From Owenia fusiformis (Eukaryota; Annelida; Polychaeta; Sabellida; Oweniidae), in assembly GCA_903813345.2 (NCBI GenBank), contig CAIIXF020000011.1, positions 35,496,166-35,560,165 of the forward strand: 64,000 nucleotides of DNA, in the 5' to 3' direction. Position numbers and translations under genes: made by a program. Below are positions 5,698 to 54,045 of this stretch, piece after piece (position 1 is the stretch's first letter; each line of letters starts with the position of its first letter). The notes under the pieces are model-generated. The model saw only the letters and a program-made list of their open reading frames with translations. It was not told the origin of the DNA and did no database searches.

Positions 5698-7600
5698 GAA
5701 AATTAATTAGGCTCCAAATGAACAGCAATATCGAATGTAAGAGATTTCCAATGTCTGGTCTATAAAAATAACTAATACATGTATATCATTTATAAAAATC
5801 AGACTTTGTACTGACTCTTAATTGATCTTTTAAATTAGAATGTAAATATTCCATTGTGTTGTGACTGAATATTACTCAAGTTTACATGTACATAAAAATT
5901 GTATAATAACTTTTGTATTGTAAATATTGAAAATATGCTTGTACTAGATATTTAATAAATCTACAAAAATGTTAAAAGTTTGTATGTTTGTTGTAAAATC
6001 AAGGTGTCAATTAAGGTTAGAGTGGGGTCAACCGAGATATTAAAATCTCTTAATGCCTCAAGTTTTGGAAGATCTTACACATTTAACTTGTTAGACCAAA
6101 ATTTGGTATGATAGTTATGATTTTTGAAACCTTACAAAACATGAGGTATACATAATCCATATACCTTATGCTTATTGGGGACAGTTCTATAAGTTCGGTT
6201 CTAAATGATACCTTATCTGGATAGTAATGCTGATTCTAGTATTCAGTATGAAAAATTGCATACTGTGGATGTACAACTGATTTTATTTGGAAGTTTGGAA
6301 ATAATGTTTTGCAGGATCATCCATTGAATCTTGTTCAGTGTGATTTGTTGTAGATAACTCCTATAGATGGCAGTTCACTACTAGGTTATTCAGCTGATTC
6401 TCCCTTTCAATTGGAAAATATATTGATTTTGATGGAAAAAAACAAAAATACACCATTTTCAATTGACCAGCCATTATGAGAAATTACATTTTTGCAATAT
6501 TGCAAATTTCATCTTAAGCATGTCCTGGTCCTATGTCTAAGGCACTGGTATTTGACACCAAAAAAATAGAAAATTGGATGCCATTTTGAAACAGAACTGC
6601 CATATTTAAAATTCCTTCTCAAGCAGAGGTCATATCATATCCCCATACAGTGGTACATGTAATATTCATGAAAAACAACAATAAAAGTATATTCTCGTAT
6701 TTAGTCCATTTATTTGGTTTATATATAAACATACAAATACCTCCAGTGTAACTTTTGAGTACATTTATTAGTAAATAATATGCAACACCCTGATGTCTAT
6801 TGCTCAGAGGAAATATTTGTCATGAGGAACTAATATTACATTGGAGTTCAATGTAGAATAAATGTCAGTTATTAAAATATAGATAGCAGAGTAGTAATTA
6901 ACCAATCAGACGTGTGGCTGATTTTATGTGACGCAGACTCCAGTATCTTTTTTTCGTTGATTTACTTCTATTTTTTAAGCTTTCGGATTTTTAAATATCT
7001 ACCAGAAAACTGTTAATGTATAAAATATTTTAACAGGGGTTTCATTATAATATCTGACAATAGGAGACACAAATCAAGATAACAAGTAAAATTATTGGAA
7101 TGATAATGCAAAGTTTCACAAAAACATGTGATTTTGGTAAAAACAACCATAAATATAGGTGGAAATTGCCTGCTGGGAATGAAGCCCTGCGGTACTAAAG
7201 GCCAACCATGGGCGTAGCGCCCGGTACGCTGGGTACGCACAGGCATACCAGATGGTTGCAAATTCACTCCAAATACAACCAAATTTCAAAATTTTTCTAG
7301 GGGGAGAACCCCCTGACCCCTGAAGACTTGTTTTTTGTTTCCCTCTACTCTTGCTCCCATGCAGGCTCCCATGGTGGCGTACTACTTAGAAGAATAGTGA
7401 TACGCCCATGCCAACTGTTTTCCCATGTTCAATGTGTACTACATTTTCTATTATACTGCTATGAATCTGAATGTATTCATATTATAGGTCAACAGAAAGA
7501 TGGCACTAGGGGTCATTCTGCTATTTTTCTTCCTTTATAAATAGACAGACACTAGTGCCATCTTTTATTCAACCTAGTCCCTACATTAATCCCCAAGTCC
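5698..7600. other. Intergenic DNA without recognised genes
   Basis: No exon or long ORF with family resemblance was seen. A degraded repeat lies around 7180-7330 (a GGGCGTAGC stretch and a GGGGAGAACCCCCTGACCCC block, a kind common in dispersed invertebrate repeats). A short hairpin at 7497-7567 has AGATGGCACTAG and its reverse complement as arms. Confidence 0.35.
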
Positions 7601-38100: not shown

Positions 38101-41100
38101 AGAAGGCTAATATTTAGATGTGATCTTGAATCACCTATGACAAAGGCTAAGACTGGTGATTAACAGCCTTTCAACGCAGGATTTAGGTTACTTTGTAGTC
38201 CTAACGTTTGAAACTGAAATACTGATTTCAGCGGCTATTCTTTCAATCTACGAATGTTCCTAACATCAGTAGGGAGAAACTATGGAAGACTTCAGCTGCC
38301 TCTGTGCAGATCAAGACTTCTTTTTATCTGTGAGGTGGAAGTTTTCTACATGAAATTAAAATGGCGGGTTTAACGGAGAAGAACAATCGTCCAGAGATTT
38401 CCGAATGATGCCAATAAACAAGCTAGCATCAGCCCTGGAGTCTGCATTTCTCACTCCAAGTTTGAATCACAAGTTTTGTTATTTTTTTCTAACAAAATAA
38501 TTCAGAGGTGATCACCATATTAATTGAATTAAATTAGTGGCCATGTATGGTCACAGACGATAATGACACTAGCTTTATTGACATCGTTCGTAATCTCTGC
38601 ACAATTTGTTCTTCTCCGCTAAAATCTGCCATTTTAATTGTTGTAAAAAAGTTTCGCCTCGGGCGATAAAAAGAGTCTGAGTCTGGAGTCTTCCATAGTT
38701 TCACCATTGAGGCCATTGATGTTAGGAACATTCATAGATATGAAGTAAGTCCCTGAATTCAGTATTTCATTTTCAGACGTTACGAATACAAAATGACCTA
38801 TATCCTACGTTGAAAGGCTGTATATCAAAATCAGTACAGTCTTCGAAATAGGTAACTCTTGAGTTTTTAGTTCTATAGCAATCAACATGATCCTGAAAAT
38901 ACATTCATTAGTACCCCGGACAGGTTGTATGATGCAGTCGTTTTTTTACTCTATATTTGCAATAGAACAACCATTCTTATTGAAATTTTCATATTTTATT
39001 CTGGAGACAATTTCCAACATGGAAAAAAAATATTTTAACAAAATTCTTAATTTTATGATTTTGATAGGCTTTATTCAAAAACACTCCACTGTCAATAAAA
39101 TACAGGGTTTGCTTGAACAATTAAACTTTAACGTCATTTCAAAGATTGTCTAGCTATTGAATTTTTGACAACCTAAAGTCTTTCCAGATGTATTTGAGGC
39201 CATATTAATTATTGCTGATTATTGTTATTCATTTTTTGTCATATTCAATAGGCCTAATATTATTACAGTGCTTTAGACCAATGAAAAACTTGTCACTCAG
39301 GGTCACTTTTTCTCTGAAAACGCACCTTTTTCTCCACTGGATTTTTCCGCCACTGTCACTCAGCATGCAAGCCTGTGGCACGTAAATTGTACCATGCTTT
39401 TAAAATGTCAGGTCTCCCTGACAATTTCATGATAAAATTTGACACAGCTGTATTAACATCTCTGAAGGATCTAATGCCAAGAATACTTCAAATAGGAGAT
39501 TCGTAATGTTTTACTTCATTTTGGACAGTATTGAACAGTGACCGGGTTGAACTCATGTCCGTGGACAAGAAGACTGACCTCCTCTATCTGGGCTCAATCT
39601 AGGGAACACTTCACAAAACGAGACCCAGAGCAACAAGTTTTTATTGGCCTAATGCACCGTAATTATATTGAATATGACTCAAGTGAATAAAAATAATCAG
39701 CCATAATTATTAATATGACAACAGATATATCTGGAAAGACTTTGGGCGGCCAGAAATTCAATAGCCAGACAATATTTGAAATGACGTTAAAAGTTCAATT
39801 GTTCAAGCAAAAACCTGTATTTTATTGACAGTGTAGTGTTTTTGAAAAAAGCCCGTCAAAATCATAAAATTGGAAATTTTTATAAAATATTTATTTTCCA
39901 TGTTGGAAATTGTCTCTAGAATAAATCTTGAAAATTTCAATAAGAATGGTTGTTCTATTGCAAATATAGAGTAAAAAAATGACTGCATCATACAACCTGT
40001 CCGGGGTACTATGTTAATATCTTCAAAAGATAAATATGTGCAAAAGCAAGTTGGAAGTTTTATTACAAAATCATTCAAAAACTTAAACTTGCCTGGAGAT
40101 TAACATTTTGAATGCATCACACCTAAAGTATATTATAACATATGTAAATAACAAGTTTTTTGTATAAATTGTATATATTAGTGTAGTGTAGTGTAGTTTT
40201 GTGAAATTTCATTTTGTAATGACTAATATGTCAGGTCATGACATCTAAAGAGTCAATAAAAGATATATATATATAAATTGAATTTGTTTGCATTAAAGAA
40301 CTATTTGACGATTGTATTCAGGTCGGCGTGACATATTTGCAATGAAATATTTCAATTCATTATCTATTTTTACCACAATGAAAGAATTTCCTCAATAAAT
40401 TGATACAAAGTTAGAGTTAGATTCATAGATGATTGATTGAAAGGTTGATTCAAGAATTTGTAAAGTTGATTTATTGAAAGGATGAGGGGTTGAAACGATG
40501 ATTGGTTGAAATGATACTATCAGTTGTCACACGTTTCAGCATGTGATACAGGAAATATTCCTCGATAGGTAATACTCTCATCCACAAAAGCGAAGCTTGA
40601 GTGGTGATACATTGTTACCCGAGTGGAATGTTTCCTTATCACACACGCTGATATTTGTGATGACGATTTTATCACAAATGTCTGGGAAATATGAAGCATT
40701 TTGATTTTGTCATTATGATTGTGATCAGTACTCCCAGAAACTACAGTATTATAATTTTGTGTGTTTTGAAATTTCGCTTTGAAATAATTTGACGTTGTTC
40801 CATTGTATTCGTACTCTTGCTTGTGAAATAATATGACATCATACTGTTTTCTTTAAAAATATGAAACATCATAAGTGGTTGCCTCTAGTAACCTGTGAGA
40901 CGGCTGTGTGAGATGGGAACCAACCATTCAGATTACTGGAATTTCACATAGTATGTGATAAAATATGGTATTACATTTCTCCATTTACACTCAACATCTA
41001 AACTGTTCTTTACATTACAGGAGCCTCTGATGAATGAGAGGAGGTTCCTACACACTGGGAACAAGATCAGCATACAGTTAAGGATGAGACACACTGCGGA

Positions 41101-44100
41101 TCTTACACTCAACACCTAAACAGTTACTTACATTACAGGAGCCTCTAATGAATGAGAGGAGGTTCCTACACACTGGGAACAAGATCAGCATACAGTTAAG
41201 GTTAATACACGCTGCAGATCTTACACTCAACACCTAAACTGTTACTTACATTACAGGAACCTCTAATGAATGAGAGGAGGTTCCTACACACTGGGAACAA
41301 GATCAGCATACAGTTAAGGTTGAGACACACTGCGGATCTTACACTCAACACCTAAACAGTTACTTACATTACAGGAGCCTCTAATGAATGAGAGGAGATT
41401 CCTACACACTGGGAACAAGATCAGCATACAGTTAAGGTTAATACACGCTGCAGATCTTACACTCAACACCTAAACTGTTACTTACATTACAGGAACCTCT
41501 AATGAATGAGAGGAGGTTCCTACACACTGGGAACAAGATCAGCATACAGTTAAGGTTGAGACACGCTGCGGATCTTACACTCAACTCCTAAACAGTTACT
41601 TACATTACAGGAGCCTCTAATGAATGAGAGGAGGTTCCTACACACTGGGAACAAGATCAGCATATAGTTAAGGTTGAGACACACTGCGGATCCTACACTC
41701 AACACCTAAACAGTTACTTACATTACAGGAGCCTCTAATGAATGAGAGGAGGTTCCTACACACTGGGAACAAGATCAGCATATAGTTAAGGTTGAGACAC
41801 ACTGCGGATCCTACACTCAACACCTAAACAGTTACTTACATTACAGGAGCCTCTAATGAATGAGAGGAGGTTCCTACACACTGGGAACAAGATCAGCATA
41901 CAGTTAAGGTTAAGACACGCTGCGGATCTTACACTCAACACCTAAACAGTTACTTACATTACAAGAGCCTCTAATGAATGAGAGGAGGTTCCTACACACT
42001 GGGAACAAGATCAGCATACAGTTAAGGTTGAGACACGCTGCAGATCTTACACTCAACACCTAAACAGTAACTTACATTGTAGGAGCCTCTATTGAATGAG
42101 AGGAGATTCCTACACACTGGGAACAAGATCAGCATACAGTTAAGGTTGAGACACGCTGCAGATCTTACACTCAAAACCTAAACAGTTACTTACATTACAG
42201 GAGCCTCTAATGAATGAGAGGAGGTTCCTACATACTGGGAACAAGATCAGCATACAGTTATGGTTAAGACACGCTGCGGATCTTACACTCAACACCTAAA
42301 CAGTTACTTACATTGTAGGAGCCTCTATTGAATGAGAGGAGATTCCTACACACTGGGAACAAGATCAGCATACAGTTAAGGTTGAGACACGCTGCAGATC
42401 TTACACTCAAAACCTAAACAGTTACTTACATTACAGGAGCCTCTAATGAATGAGAGGAGGTTCCTACATACTGGGAACAAGATCAGCATACAGTTATGGT
42501 TAAGACACGCTGCGGATCTTACACTCAACACCTCAACTGTTACTTACATTACAGGAGCCTCTGATGAATGAGAGGAGGTTCCTACACACTGGGAACAAGA
42601 TCAGCATACAGTTAAGGTTGAGACACGCTGCGGATCTTACACTCAACACCTAAACAGTTACTTACATTACAGGAGCCGCTAATAAATGAGAGGAGGTTCC
42701 TACACACTGGGAACAAGATCAGCATACAGTTAAGGTTGAGACATGCTGCGGATCTTACACTCAACTCTTAAACAGTTACTTACATTACAGGAGCCTCTGA
42801 TGAATGAGAGGAGGTTCCTACACACTGGGAACAAGATCAGCATACAGTTAAGGTTGAGACACGCTGCGGATCTTACACTCAACACCTAAACAGTTACTTA
42901 CATTACAGGAGCCTCTGATGAATGAGAGGAGGTTCCTACACACTGAGAACAAGATCAGCATACAGTTAAGGTTGAGACACGCTGCAGATCTTACACTCAA
43001 CTCCTAAACAGTTACTTACATTACAGGAGCCTCTGATGAATGAGAGGAGGTTCCTACACACTGGGAACAAGATCAGCATACAGTTAAGGTTGAGACACAC
43101 TGCGGATCCTACACTCAACACCTAAACAGTTACTTACATTACAGGAGCCTCTAATGAATGAGAGGAGGTTCCTACACACTGGGAACAAGATCAGCATACA
43201 GTTAAGGTTAAGACACGCTGCGGATCTTACACTCAACACCTAAACAGTTACTTACATTACAAGAGCCTCTAATGAATGAGAGGAGGTTCCTACACACTGG
43301 GAACAAGATCAGCATACAGTTAAGGTTGAGACACGCTGCAGATCTTACACTCAACACCTAAACAGTTACTTACATTGTAGGAGCCTCTATTGAATGAGAG
43401 GAGATTCCTACACACTGGGAACAAGATCAGCATACAGTTAAGGTTGAGACACGCTGCAGATCTTACACTCAAAACCTAAACAGTTACTTACATTACAGGA
43501 GCCTCTAATGAATGAGAGGAGGTTCCTACATACTGGGAACAAGATCAGCATACAGTTATGGTTAAGACACGCTGCGGATCTTACACTCAACACCTCAACT
43601 GTTACTTACATTACAGGAGCCTCTAATGAATGAGAGGAGATTCCTACACACTGGGAACAAGATCAGCATACAGTTAAGGTTGAGACACGCTGCAGATCTT
43701 ACACTCAACACCTAAACTGTTACTTACATTACAGGAACCTCTAATGAATGAGAGGAGGTTCCTACACACTGGGAACAAGATCAGCATACAGTTAAGGTTG
43801 AGACACACTGCGGATCTTACACTCAACTCCTAAACAGTTACTTACATTACAGGAGCCTCTAATGAATGAGAGGAGGTTCCTACACACTGAGAACAAGATC
43901 AGCATACAGTTAAGGTTGAGACACGCTGCAGATCTTACACTCAACTCCTAAACAGTTACTTACATTACAGGAGCCTCTAATGAATGAGAGGAGGTTCCTA
44001 CACACTGGGAACAAGATCAGCATACAGTTAAGGTTGAGACACGCTGCAGATCTTACACTCAACTCCTAAACAGTTACTTACATTACAGGAGCCTCTAATG

Positions 44101-47100
44101 AATGAGAGGAGGTTCCTACACACTGGGAACAAGATCAGCATACAGTTAAGGTTGAGACACGCTGCTGATCTTACACTCAACACCTAAACTGTTACTTACA
44201 TTACAGGAGCCTCTAATGAATGAGAGGAGGTTCCTACATACTGGGAACAAGATCAGCATACAGTTATGGTTAAGACACGCTGCGGATCTTACACTCAACA
44301 CCTAAACTGTTACTTACATTACAGGAGCCTCTGATGAATGAGAGGAGGTTCCTACACACTGGGAACAAGATCAGCATACAGTTAAGGTTAATACACGCTG
44401 CAGATCTTACACTCAACACCTAAACAGTTACTTACATTACAGGAGCCTCTAATGAATGAGAGGAGGTTCCTACATACTGGGAACAACATCAGCGTACAGT
44501 TATGGTTAAGACACGCTGCGGATCTTACACTCAACACCTAAACAGTTACTTACATTACAAGAGCCTCTAATGAATGAGAGGAGGTTCCTACACACTGGGA
44601 ACAAGATCAGCATACAGTTAAGGTTAAGACACGCTGCAGATCTTACACTCAACTCCTTAACAGTTACTTACATTACAGGAGCCTCTAATGAATGAAAGGA
44701 GGTTCCTACATACTGGGAACAACATCAGCATACAGTTATGGTTAAGACACGCTGTGGATCTTACACTCAACACCTAAACAGTTACTTACATTACAGGAGC
44801 CTCTAATGAATGAGAGGAGGTTCCTACACACTGGGAACAAGATCAGCATACAGTTAAGGTTAAGACACGCTGCAGATCCTCGCGCAAATGGCAGGGCCAG
44901 CTGAAATATGAGAAAATTCACTTTACACTTCAGCGGGTATTGGCTCTGGAAAGACAGCCCATGGTGCAATCAATTAAGTAAAGCCAGTGCAAGTGGAAGC
45001 TACCAAGTGGAAGATCTTGGCTACATGAAAATAATGGAAGGTGTTCTGCTTAGAGAGGTCCATTTTACAAGTTGTATATCAAAGTAATGGGTGACAGTTT
45101 CAAGTGTTCCACTGATGGAGGTGTTCCACTTTACACGTTTTGTTATGCAAATATGGTATACTCCATCCAACTTTAATTTTTTACATAAATTACAAGTCAT
45201 TTTAATAATTTATACCTTATATCATTTCACTAATCTAACTTGTGGATATATGTGCAAATGTACATGAGCTAAATTTTACTGTCCCCTAGTATCCCTCGTT
45301 TGTATTTCATTCAAAATTTAAAAAAACTAGCTATCCATGACCAATGTAAAATACATCAGGCAAGTATGAGTTTCTAATATAAATAATGACCTACCCCTAA
45401 TATTTGATTGAGGTAGTAATACTGTGCTCCATTGTAGAACTTTAGAAAGAAACCAGTGAAAACTCCAATATTTGTTCCAAACCAGATAAACTGAAATAAA
45501 AAACATAAAATATTTTATATTTTAAGGTGCATTTTCTGGAATAAATTCGTTGTATCTATTACATCCCATAGTTGATGTTTCATCTAAATCCTGTAGATGT
45601 TTTGCATGACCTAGCTATATGAATTGAATATTACAATGTACACATTGGCATTTTGAAAAGGTAATATCATACAGTTGCAGACCTCTCTTGAGGTCAACTG
45701 GCAAATTTGTATACCAATACTGGAATCCTTGAAATAAACATTGAAAAGGACCTGAGGTTGAGTTCAACAGTACTTACAAGGTTTACATTTGAGGTATACT
45801 TTGACAGTTGACAGAATAGAAAGATTAACAATTGTTTTGTTAGTTCGAAGAATATTAACCTGGTAAACATTATTGATTCTGCAAAACGATTTTTAACTTT
45901 TTTATAAATTTATTCAGACAACATTAGGCTAACATTCCTTTCATATATATTCAAACTCTTATAAAAATCAATGCAAGATAAGCTATTAAGTAAATAACCC
46001 AGTTAGTAGTACCCCCCCCCCCTCCCTGTTACAGATTGTCATCAATTGATAGACTTAAAGCAATTATTCAAGTATACTACAGATATGATTTGGGCCTCAT
46101 GCATTAAATAATTAAATAAGCAAGTCAAAAACACCAAGTTGACATTTCATTTGTCTCTTTTAAAGTAGAAATTTTCAAAAGGACGATTCTCGGTTTGGAG
46201 AACAGTCTCCTGGGCTAATAATTTTTTTCATGAAAAATATAAAAATATTACCCAAATTAAACTATGAATATTCAAAAGAGGACATTTAAATCTACAAGAT
46301 GTAAAAATAACAAATTGGTCTGAAGCAGGGATAACGCTCAATTAGAGCGATTCAATAAAATACAAGTCTCGATTTGGGGAAAAAAGTTCATCAGTGTACT
46401 GCGCTAATATTTTTTTGCGAAAAATCTAGAAATATTACCCAAATTAAATTATGACTATTCAAAAGAAGACATTCAAATCTATATTATGTAAAAAAATCAA
46501 ATTTGTCCGAAGCAGGGATAATGCTCATTTAGATTGATGAACTTCGTTCTCCAAACCGAGAATCGTCCTTTGAACAAATATTTGAAGATAACAATTTTCA
46601 ATGTGGCAAATACAGGAAATATTAACAAAATTCAATTTATCAGATGTGAGCCATAAATCCAATTAAAGCAATAGCTAATTGAACTAATGTTATGAGGTGA
46701 ATGTACTAATAAACTGAGATTATCAGTTAAACGATAAACAATACTTCACATTGAAGATAGCATAATGTCAAATTCAAATAATCAACAATATTTGAGGATT
46801 GCTGGGTCAAAACTATGGGATAAGATACCCTTTTCCAATAGCTATTTGATTTTACTTTCAAAGAGAGTTTTATCTATATTCTTTCAGTTACGGAAAATCC
46901 TTTGATCAAGTCCTAACCAATCAGTATAATTATAAGAACGTCAGGTCAGTCGGCCTGGCCAAAAATTCTGCAGTTTAATACCATTTTGAACATTTTCCAA
47001 GTGATTCTGGGGTCATTTAGATGTAATCAACATTGAAACTCATTACTCTTACTCAGAGTAGAATACTGGACTCTAACACTCAGGGTAGGGAGTAACAGGA

Positions 47101-51959: not shown

Positions 51960-53460
51960 ACATTTGCTAACACCCCCACTTTCATAGTGAAGTGACTAAT
52001 TGGTTTATGTTTACATTTTAATGTGTTTTGGGTTCCTTGTTACAGCAAGGGGGGCCAGTAAAGTAGACTAACATGTTTGCATGGCAAATTTTGATCGAAT
52101 ATGTGAGACACTTTAAGATTAACATGGCTGAAATTCTTCAAAATCTGAAATATACTCTAGATCTATTATTTTTTTTGTTTACTCAACTCTGGCTAGATCT
52201 TAGTTCAACAAGTAAAACCTGGTCGTTATTGTTGTTGTCTAGTCTGGGCCTTATTTCTTATATGACATATCTTGTGGCCTATTCGGCCTTTGATGCAAAA
52301 AAATTTAATAGTGGCTGATGGCAGCACATAGCATGCACGTTTTATTAATAACTGATAGTAAGAATTTGCGACCAATGAAAGCATAGCACGGAAGTTAAAC
52401 TCAACCTCATTTTACCACATTTGATTTTAAAATTTGTTCAAAAGTTAGGCCTAGTCTTACCCTTTGCATTTGTTCTACTTCGCTTCTTAAAGAGAGCTGA
52501 GTTTATAACTAGGCTCTGCGTGCAGGGTAGCTTAGCCTACATAATAAAAGTAACTAACAGTAACAAGAAAAAATATCATCACTTGTCGATCGATGCCAAC
52601 ATTGAAAATGTAATTATTTTCTGACATTAACTGACTGTAGATTCTTAATCAGCCATCCAAAAGATTTGAACTAATAACCTGATCTCTTCTTGTGTGTTTT
52701 TAATTTTTTGTCTGGAAATAAGACCAAAACTCGCAATTCAAATTCTGATGTGACAAAATGGCAGCCATTTGATTTCAAATTTTGTAATCACAACATTGAA
52801 TCACACCGTTGAGTCGAAAATCGACCCTAAGATCTCTCTTATTGCAATTTCATTCAGAACTATACTCAGAGCTCACTTGAGGTTGGTAGAGTAGGTATCG
52901 AGAGTCAGTGTACTATAATTCTATTATTTGGGGGAATCCCCAAGATTATCCAAATTGGAATTAGGGTAAATTTTATCTGAAAATGAATCTACCTACTTAG
53001 ATTAATTTTTTGATAAAAATTTATCCTAAAAATTGTTTGAATTTATCGAGGTTTGGATAAATTCTAAGATTAATCCCACAGTGTATCATTACCATGATAA
53101 AATTTATCCAGATCGGATTACGGATCATATGAATTCACAGGCCCTAGCTTATTTATTTTCCATTTGGAAATTTGGCAATGAAACTTATGGCATCCAAAAG
53201 CATTGTCAGAAAGCATCCAAAAAATTATTGCTGATTGAAATTATTAATTGATTTTTTTCCTATTTTCAGAGCATCATTGGAGTAAAAGAACAACTTAAAG
53301 ATCAAAAGTTGATGTCCAATAACTTTCAAGAAATACAAAGATATATATAACATATGATGCATCATAACTTCTGAGAAATTCAACAGTCCATTTATATAAC
53401 ATACAGTATACCTAACTTTTGATTGGACAAGAGCTGTCACCAAAGACTATAATTATAATA
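51960..53460. other. Region upstream of SSU72
   Basis: No coding exon recognised. A pyrimidine-rich stretch ending TTTTCAG near 53270 could be the acceptor of a 5' UTR exon of SSU72. Confidence 0.35.
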
Positions 53461-53463
53461 AAC

Positions 53464-54045
53464 ATGCCAGATGACCTATACATTGCAGTTGTATGCTCCA
53501 GTAACCAGAACAGGAGTATGGAAGCTCATAATTTTTTGAACAAAAAGGGTTACAGGGTGAGGTCATTTGGATCAGGCAGCCATGTCAAACTCCCAGGTTC
53601 AGCAGCGGATAAGCCAAACATCTATGATTTCAATACGACATATGATGAAATGTACCGGGATTTAATTTCTAAAAATCCAGAACTTTATACACAAAATGGC
53701 ATACTTCACATGCTTGATCGGAATCGTCGGATTAAACCACATCCTGAACGATTCCAAGGATGTAAAGAAAAATTTGATGTCATTATCACGTGTGAGGAGC
53801 GCGTTTATGATCAGGTTATAGAAGATTTTGATAGTCGAGAAAAGGGGACTGAAAAGGCGGTTCATGTACTCAATATAAACATTACTGATAATCACGAAGA
53901 TGCTACGATTGGTGCGTTTATGATATGTGACCTTGTCGCTATGTTACAAGATACTGAAGATTTGGATGATGAAATTGATGAACAGTTGCAGGAATTTGAA
54001 CATAAATGTGGCCGCGAATTGCTTCACATAGTGCAATTCTATTGA
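53464..54045 (+). CDS. SSU72: SSU72 RNA polymerase II CTD phosphatase, intronless
   Basis: SSU72 removes phosphate from Ser5 (and Ser7) of the RNA polymerase II C-terminal repeats and works with the cleavage/polyadenylation machinery in the nucleus. The 193-aa protein starts M-P-D-D at 53464; the upstream in-frame ATG at 53419 is not conserved. Seen: the phosphatase loop C-S-S-N-Q-N-R-S with C11 and R17 (CX5R), H-V-K-L-P-G, Y-T-Q-N-G-I-L-H-M-L-D-R-N, the T-C-E-E-R-V-Y-D-Q-V block and the D-N-H-E-D-A loop carrying the general-acid Asp. It ends in a Q-F-Y tail near the usual C-F-Y end and is one residue shorter than the human protein. It is a single exon although the vertebrate gene has several, so a functional retrocopy is possible. 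AATAAA at 54076-54081 ends the message early. Confidence 0.96.
   Translation: MPDDLYIAVVCSSNQNRSMEAHNFLNKKGYRVRSFGSGSHVKLPGSAADKPNIYDFNTTYDEMYRDLISKNPELYTQNGILHMLDRNRRIKPHPERFQGCKEKFDVIITCEERVYDQVIEDFDSREKGTEKAVHVLNINITDNHEDATIGAFMICDLVAMLQDTEDLDDEIDEQLQEFEHKCGRELLHIVQFY

Follow-up and report, generated by a model that had tools for sequence, protein, structure and literature searches.

The kind of repeat considered here is already known from the human genes IFI6 and CBS. The minisatellite of IFI6 (6-16, G1P3), about 12 bp x 26, reportedly contains multiple splice donors, an observation said to go back to Turri 1995. Two downstream repeat units of this minisatellite are reported to serve as splice donors, giving three mRNA species (PMC4526556). 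CBS has a variable number of tandem repeats (VNTR) with a unit of 31 bp, c.1444_1467+7(16_21), in which 16-21 tandem copies show single-base differences between units (PMC2630376); it is placed at exon 13-intron 13 (PMC1395315, PMC5188458), and more repeat copies are reported with lower CBS activity (PMC5188458). In potato, a gene gained a new intron when a stretch over an intron-exon boundary was duplicated in tandem (PMC4974935). A total of 33 tandem units of 118 bp, each holding the end of exon 3 of a NOX2-like gene and the beginning of intron 3, were analysed here in a stretch of 64,000 nucleotides from the annelid Owenia fusiformis (C11:35496166-35560165, hereafter the window; genome of 498 Mb in 525 contigs). 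Our analysis identifies this array as a large and tidy example of the repeat kind known from CBS and IFI6. Probably a tandem duplication over the exon 3/intron 3 junction gave rise to this local minisatellite, which was tolerated and has turned over together with the working exon.

Comparison with the described systems revealed both likenesses and differences. As in CBS, the tandem unit of the 118-bp array joins a coding exon end to the donor and the start of the intron. The CBS unit is 31 bp (24 coding and 7 intron nucleotides by its notation), whereas the unit found here is 118 bp (89 and 29), and the source passages on CBS mention no second junction-spanning array of that gene, whereas two further arrays occur here. 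The IFI6 repeat units likewise carry splice donors; donor use is reported for IFI6, whereas the donors here are predicted from sequence. The potato gene is alike in that a segment running over the edge of an exon was duplicated in tandem, but a single duplication led there to a spliced new intron, whereas 33 copies are present here without evidence of new introns. An earlier, sequence-only reading of this DNA had held that no such system was described, a view that does not stand beside the same architecture in the CBS VNTR (PMC2630376) and the donor-bearing units of IFI6 (PMC4526556). This locus stands out by its long unit, by how many near-identical donors it holds and by the presence of two acceptor arrays in the same gene. 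No NOX exon array and no alternative exon 6 copies in a NOX2 were found among the titles listed by a literature search of open-access papers with mostly general repeat and splicing terms, which is weak evidence of absence.

The NOX2-like gene lies on the minus strand of the window, with exon-sized matches over most of the NOX2 protein. Its exons were located with a human NOX2 sequence and are numbered by our own count starting at exon 2. Besides these matches, assignment to the NOX2 (CYBB) family is based on the match of exon 3 (37 residues) to Protein Data Bank (PDB) chains of the cytochrome b-245 heavy chain (NOX2; 8gz3, 8kei; E 3.4e-11) and on a NAD_binding_6 match within the window at C11:35508657. 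The view of the sequence-only reading that a NOX2 exon seeded the array is supported as to the edge of the exon. Among the exon-sized pieces submitted to Pfam, none was assigned an oxidase domain; a sub-threshold Pox_L5 match for the exon 3 frame (20.9 bits vs cut-off 24) was taken as chance. Exon 3 has the acceptor ATATTTCAG and the donor GTAAGT. One open frame runs through exons 2, 3, 4, 5, 6a or 6b, and 7, the later exons lying outside the joined chain, and judged in this way the gene looks intact.

Analysis of the window with Tandem Repeats Finder gave a period of 118 for 40985-44878, with 33.0 copies, 94% matches, 0% indels and a score of 6969, and cutting of the minus strand at 118-nt steps yielded 33 units without indels, the period being exact. 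Copy number, position and periodicity are thus as the sequence-only reading had them. Its account of the unit, with 89 coding nucleotides and the GTAAGT donor, also holds, except that the further intronic nucleotides number 23 rather than 24 (29 in total). Two of its phrases were too generous: the units are not copies of exon 3, since each holds the last 89 of 111 exon nucleotides, and intron 3 is not filled by them, the array taking up 3,805 of its 8,442 nt by coordinates. The donor, said to be kept, is GTAAGT in 32 of the 33 units (AATGTAAGT) and GTAAAG in the farthest, unit 33 (AATGTAAAG), the only unit in which donor positions are altered. Among the 33 units 27 sequences are distinct, with a mean pairwise difference of 5.86 per 118 nt (5.0%), and 85 of the 118 positions are invariant.

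A genome search with unit 1 found at least 33 matches, and all 33 lie inside the array (C11:35537150-35541043); match counts for unit 1, and for the 147-bp and 22-bp units described below, are lower bounds. Satellite DNA is marked by very long arrays or many loci, and the matches listed here fall in one 3.9-kb stretch. The term satellite, used at first, is too strong because the array was found at one locus, and a dispersed satellite was rejected on the same search. With an exon end and a donor in each tandem unit (89 exon and 29 intron nt, 33 copies), the array is an intronic, junction-spanning minisatellite at a single locus. A mobile element carrying exon 3 is not supported either: exon 3 as a protein query drew 37 matches, 33 of them in the array and four weak ones elsewhere (the best with 53% identity and E 1.3e-4, the others with E 0.009, 0.009 and 0.59), and these four were taken for paralogous oxidase-type exons. 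Within 20 kb around the NOX-like paralogue with the best of these matches, no array overlapping an oxidase exon match was seen by eye.

Comparison of the units with one another makes homogenisation visible. Unit 1, which carries the end of the working exon 3, is 1 nt from unit 3 and 1 nt from unit 32, while 8 departures from the consensus are seen in unit 2 and 7 in unit 33. The order of the units is structured at lag 2 (mean difference 4.65 vs 5.86 under 5,000 order permutations, none as low) and at lag 11 (4.82 vs 5.87 permuted, P 0.005). At lag 11, units 12, 14 and 15 are identical to units 23, 25 and 26, and units 13 and 24 differ by 1 nt. This structure in the order indicates that blocks were probably copied in multi-unit steps.

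The coding part is well conserved, as had been noted: exon-frame stops occur in none of the 33 units, and the translation is identical to the consensus in 12 of 33. In these 89 nt, 12 synonymous and 12 non-synonymous alleles were found, where 7.2 synonymous alleles are expected given transitions and transversions (P 0.019). Third positions vary at 13 of 30 sites and first or second positions at 10 of 59 (Fisher P 0.010; P 0.029 when stratified by base); intron positions vary at 10 of 29. Read plainly, this modest signal suggests that many variants had been in the working exon 3 before they were copied.

Coordinates of the features in the NOX2-like gene (positions in the window)
Feature	Start	End	Strand	Remarks
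118-bp tandem array, 33 units	40985	44878	-	unit = final 89 nt of exon 3 joined to initial 29 nt of intron 3
Unit 33, far end of array	40985	41102	-	donor GTAAAG; 7 differences vs consensus
Exon 2	45395	45490	-	
Exon 3	44790	44900	-	111 nt, phase 0; last 89 nt = exon part of unit 1
Intron 3	36348	44789	-	8,442 nt, bounded by exon 3 and exon 4
Exon 4	36251	36347	-	
22-bp x 28 array	34213	34834	-	spans exon 5 acceptor TTTCAG/CTGTACAT; covers first 10 nt of exon 5
Exon 5	34080	34222	-	
Exon 6a	33082	33182	-	101 nt
18-bp x 18.7 array	32744	33078	-	begins 3 nt past donor end of exon 6a; abuts without spanning
147-bp x ~10 array	31324	32733	-	unit = acceptor + first 59 nt of exon 6b
Exon 6b	31282	31382	-	101 nt; 69/101 nt identical to 6a

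The region of intron 3 also contains an inverted repeat (38909-39311 and 39615-40011) with arms of about 400 bp that are 86% identical, possibly a transposable element. Elsewhere in the window, a 209-residue open frame on the plus strand (53416-54045) matches Ssu72 over 188 residues (Pfam E 4e-88) in one piece and is apparently intronless there.

Two further arrays span exon edges of the same gene, both on the acceptor side. The sequence-only reading captured the array at exon 3 and missed these two, namely the 22-bp array at exon 5 with 28 units and the 147-bp array at exon 6b with about 10, as well as a doubled exon 6. By pattern, 22 YAG acceptors occur in the 22-bp array. Its extra acceptors do not look selected, because the G of the AG, one of the more variable positions, is retained in 21 of 26 regular units. 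The idea that upstream acceptors in this array extend exon 5 in frame was rejected, a stop being met in all eight in-frame steps tested (k = 3 to 24). In the 147-bp array TAG is retained at 9 of 10 acceptor sites, and TACTAAC, the classic branch-site word, is readable in the units. Genome matches number at least 10 for the 147-bp array and at least 8 for the 22-bp array, and 10 of 10 and 8 of 8, respectively, lie in the NOX2-like gene. Exons 6a and 6b are similar and of equal length, and inclusion of both breaks the frame and gives stops; by these sequence criteria exon 6 appears to be doubled in the manner of mutually exclusive exons.

The consequences of donor choice were read from the joined exons. 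A test chain using later donors (2-7, 32 and 33) reached a stop at the same codon in all eight cases, and the remaining later donors should give the same result because the stop codon precedes the second donor. The first donor of the array would be expected in use, by exon definition, because it belongs to the sole complete exon. Since later donors would lead to a premature stop, they would be at most decoys or U1 binding sites, which could slow or tune the removal of intron 3.

The presence of three edge-spanning arrays in one gene was compared with chance. Among arrays with a score of at least 100 in the NOX2-like gene, 3 of 10 span an exon edge, where unit lengths predict 0.40 (Poisson P 0.008) and a random-placement simulation 0.34 (P 0.003); at a score of at least 50, the count is 3 of 16, with 0.49 expected by unit length (P 0.013) and 0.43 simulated (P 0.007). 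The 118-bp array itself prompted this test, and the fairer comparison leaves it out: 2 of the 9 other arrays span an edge vs roughly 0.3 expected (by subtraction). Elsewhere in the genome, around 132 sampled exons, 4 of 29 arrays with a score of at least 100 span an edge vs 1.86 expected from unit lengths, and 6 of 68 with a score of at least 50 vs 2.44 expected. Counted by exon, 4 of the 132 have an edge within an array. The exons were drawn from the 175 listed matches to two protein families, a non-random sample picked for clustering in short pieces, with match ends used as a proxy for exon ends. In locus L008 the match overshoots the likely donor, and the overlap of array and exon is about 4 nt, not 25. 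Judged by eye, the edge-spanning array is on the donor side in L008 and on the acceptor side in L016, L032 and L040.

Among these loci, L032 is an ABC transporter gene in which the array lies over the exon edge at 909-1283 with acceptor words about every 21 bp. L008 and L040 are myosin genes, with a 34-bp donor-side unit x 4 (6165-6300) and a 61-bp acceptor-side unit x 4.5 (1136-1408), respectively. At C9:37986009-37994334, one part of the myosin head is matched twelve times in succession, as is the case in muscle myosin genes with alternative exons.

Splice-site words were also counted throughout the genome. TTTCAG triples with gaps of 12-42 nt number 6,367 vs 1,884 for the reversed word; single TTTCAG words number 592,735 vs 357,508 reversed, and the excess of triples is larger than word frequency would give if it acted linearly and smaller than if it acted as a cube. 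The acceptor-word excess is therefore ambiguous. For GTAAGT triples no donor excess was found genome-wide (6,638 vs 6,471 reversed). The genome is rich in minisatellites, and a genome-wide preference of arrays for splice junctions is possible. The wider proposal is decidedly unlikely in our judgement: that splice junctions are preferred birthplaces of arrays in this genome, that the NOX2-like gene is a hot spot, that the exon 3 donor array and the exon 5 and 6b acceptor arrays jointly tune splicing including the 6a/6b choice, and that working exons are still exchanging sequence with array copies.

Overall, we favour a tolerated local minisatellite. Under this explanation, a tandem duplication crossing the exon 3/intron 3 boundary would have started the array, and unequal exchange or replication slippage may have enlarged it in multi-unit steps. 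Tolerance would follow from the outermost copy remaining a complete exon, with true acceptor, coding part and donor, while surplus copies land in the intron. Copying between the array and the working exon 3 may have continued, because the coding 89 nt have changed more often at third codon positions than at the other two. Also in favour of this explanation are the edge-spanning arrays elsewhere in the genome and the human CBS repeat, an example of such an array in a working gene. Several results weigh against this explanation. The signal by codon position is a modest one (P 0.01-0.03), drawn from 24 alleles in one among several tests, and no significant difference separates intron positions from third positions (P 0.60) or from first and second positions (P 0.10). 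No significant order structure was found by permutation at lag 1 (P 0.59) or lag 9 (P 0.12). By eye, the flanks of the 118-bp unit show no clear microhomology at the unit ends, which bears on the starting mechanism, and no exon 1 was found for the gene. To these is added a possible modest acceptor in each unit that outscores some real acceptors of the gene. The sequence-only contrast of one acceptor with 33 donors is accordingly right in that the true acceptor is on the outermost copy only, and a simplification in passing over these sites.

One rival reading has the array removed as a chain of mini-introns. TTCYCAG stands 41 nt upstream of the donor in 33 of 33 units and would permit removal in 77-nt steps or the inclusion of 41-nt pseudo-exons, and the potato gene gained its new intron by a tandem duplication of this type (PMC4974935). 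Scored with a matrix from the 13 acceptors of the NOX2-like gene, the in-unit sites reach 2.5-6.8, and under leave-one-out the lowest of these sites exceeds 3 of the 13 real acceptors and the highest exceeds 6. The matrix is tiny, however, and the scores are close to those of ordinary AGs (90th percentile 5.0, 95th 6.7, among 987 AGs in 45394-27500, array included). In units 7-8 another AG outscores the TTCYCAG site (5.0 vs 3.8), and inclusion of 1, 2 or 3 consensus-type pseudo-exons leads to an early stop. A mini-intron chain is very unlikely on this evidence.

It is unlikely, too, that the 32 extra U1-type sites have been selected as decoys that, by competing with the true donor and causing retention of intron 3, set the level of functional oxidase mRNA. 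The constancy of GTAAGT in 32 of 33 donors would agree with such regulation, as would the lower enzyme activity reported with more copies of the donor-spanning repeat of human CBS (PMC5188458). Yet donor constancy outside unit 33 looks uninformative with 85 of 118 positions invariant anyway, and the extra splice sites bear no sign of selection, the variable acceptor G of the 22-bp array being the case in point. That the assembler inflated a shorter array or a single exon 3 is extremely unlikely: the copy number of arrays of near-identical units is often uncertain, but here the 33 units include 27 distinct sequences in a structured order, the window contains no N, the listed contigs of the genome reach up to 62 Mb, and an array of 3.9 kb would be short for long reads, if such were used.

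The precedents in CBS and IFI6 limit the surprise of a minisatellite that carries splice donors. The locus is a natural case for asking how the spliceosome picks among more than 30 identical donors, and whether a working exon can evolve in concert with the minisatellite derived from it. Because two acceptor-side arrays accompany the donor-side array, both halves of the question are present at one locus.

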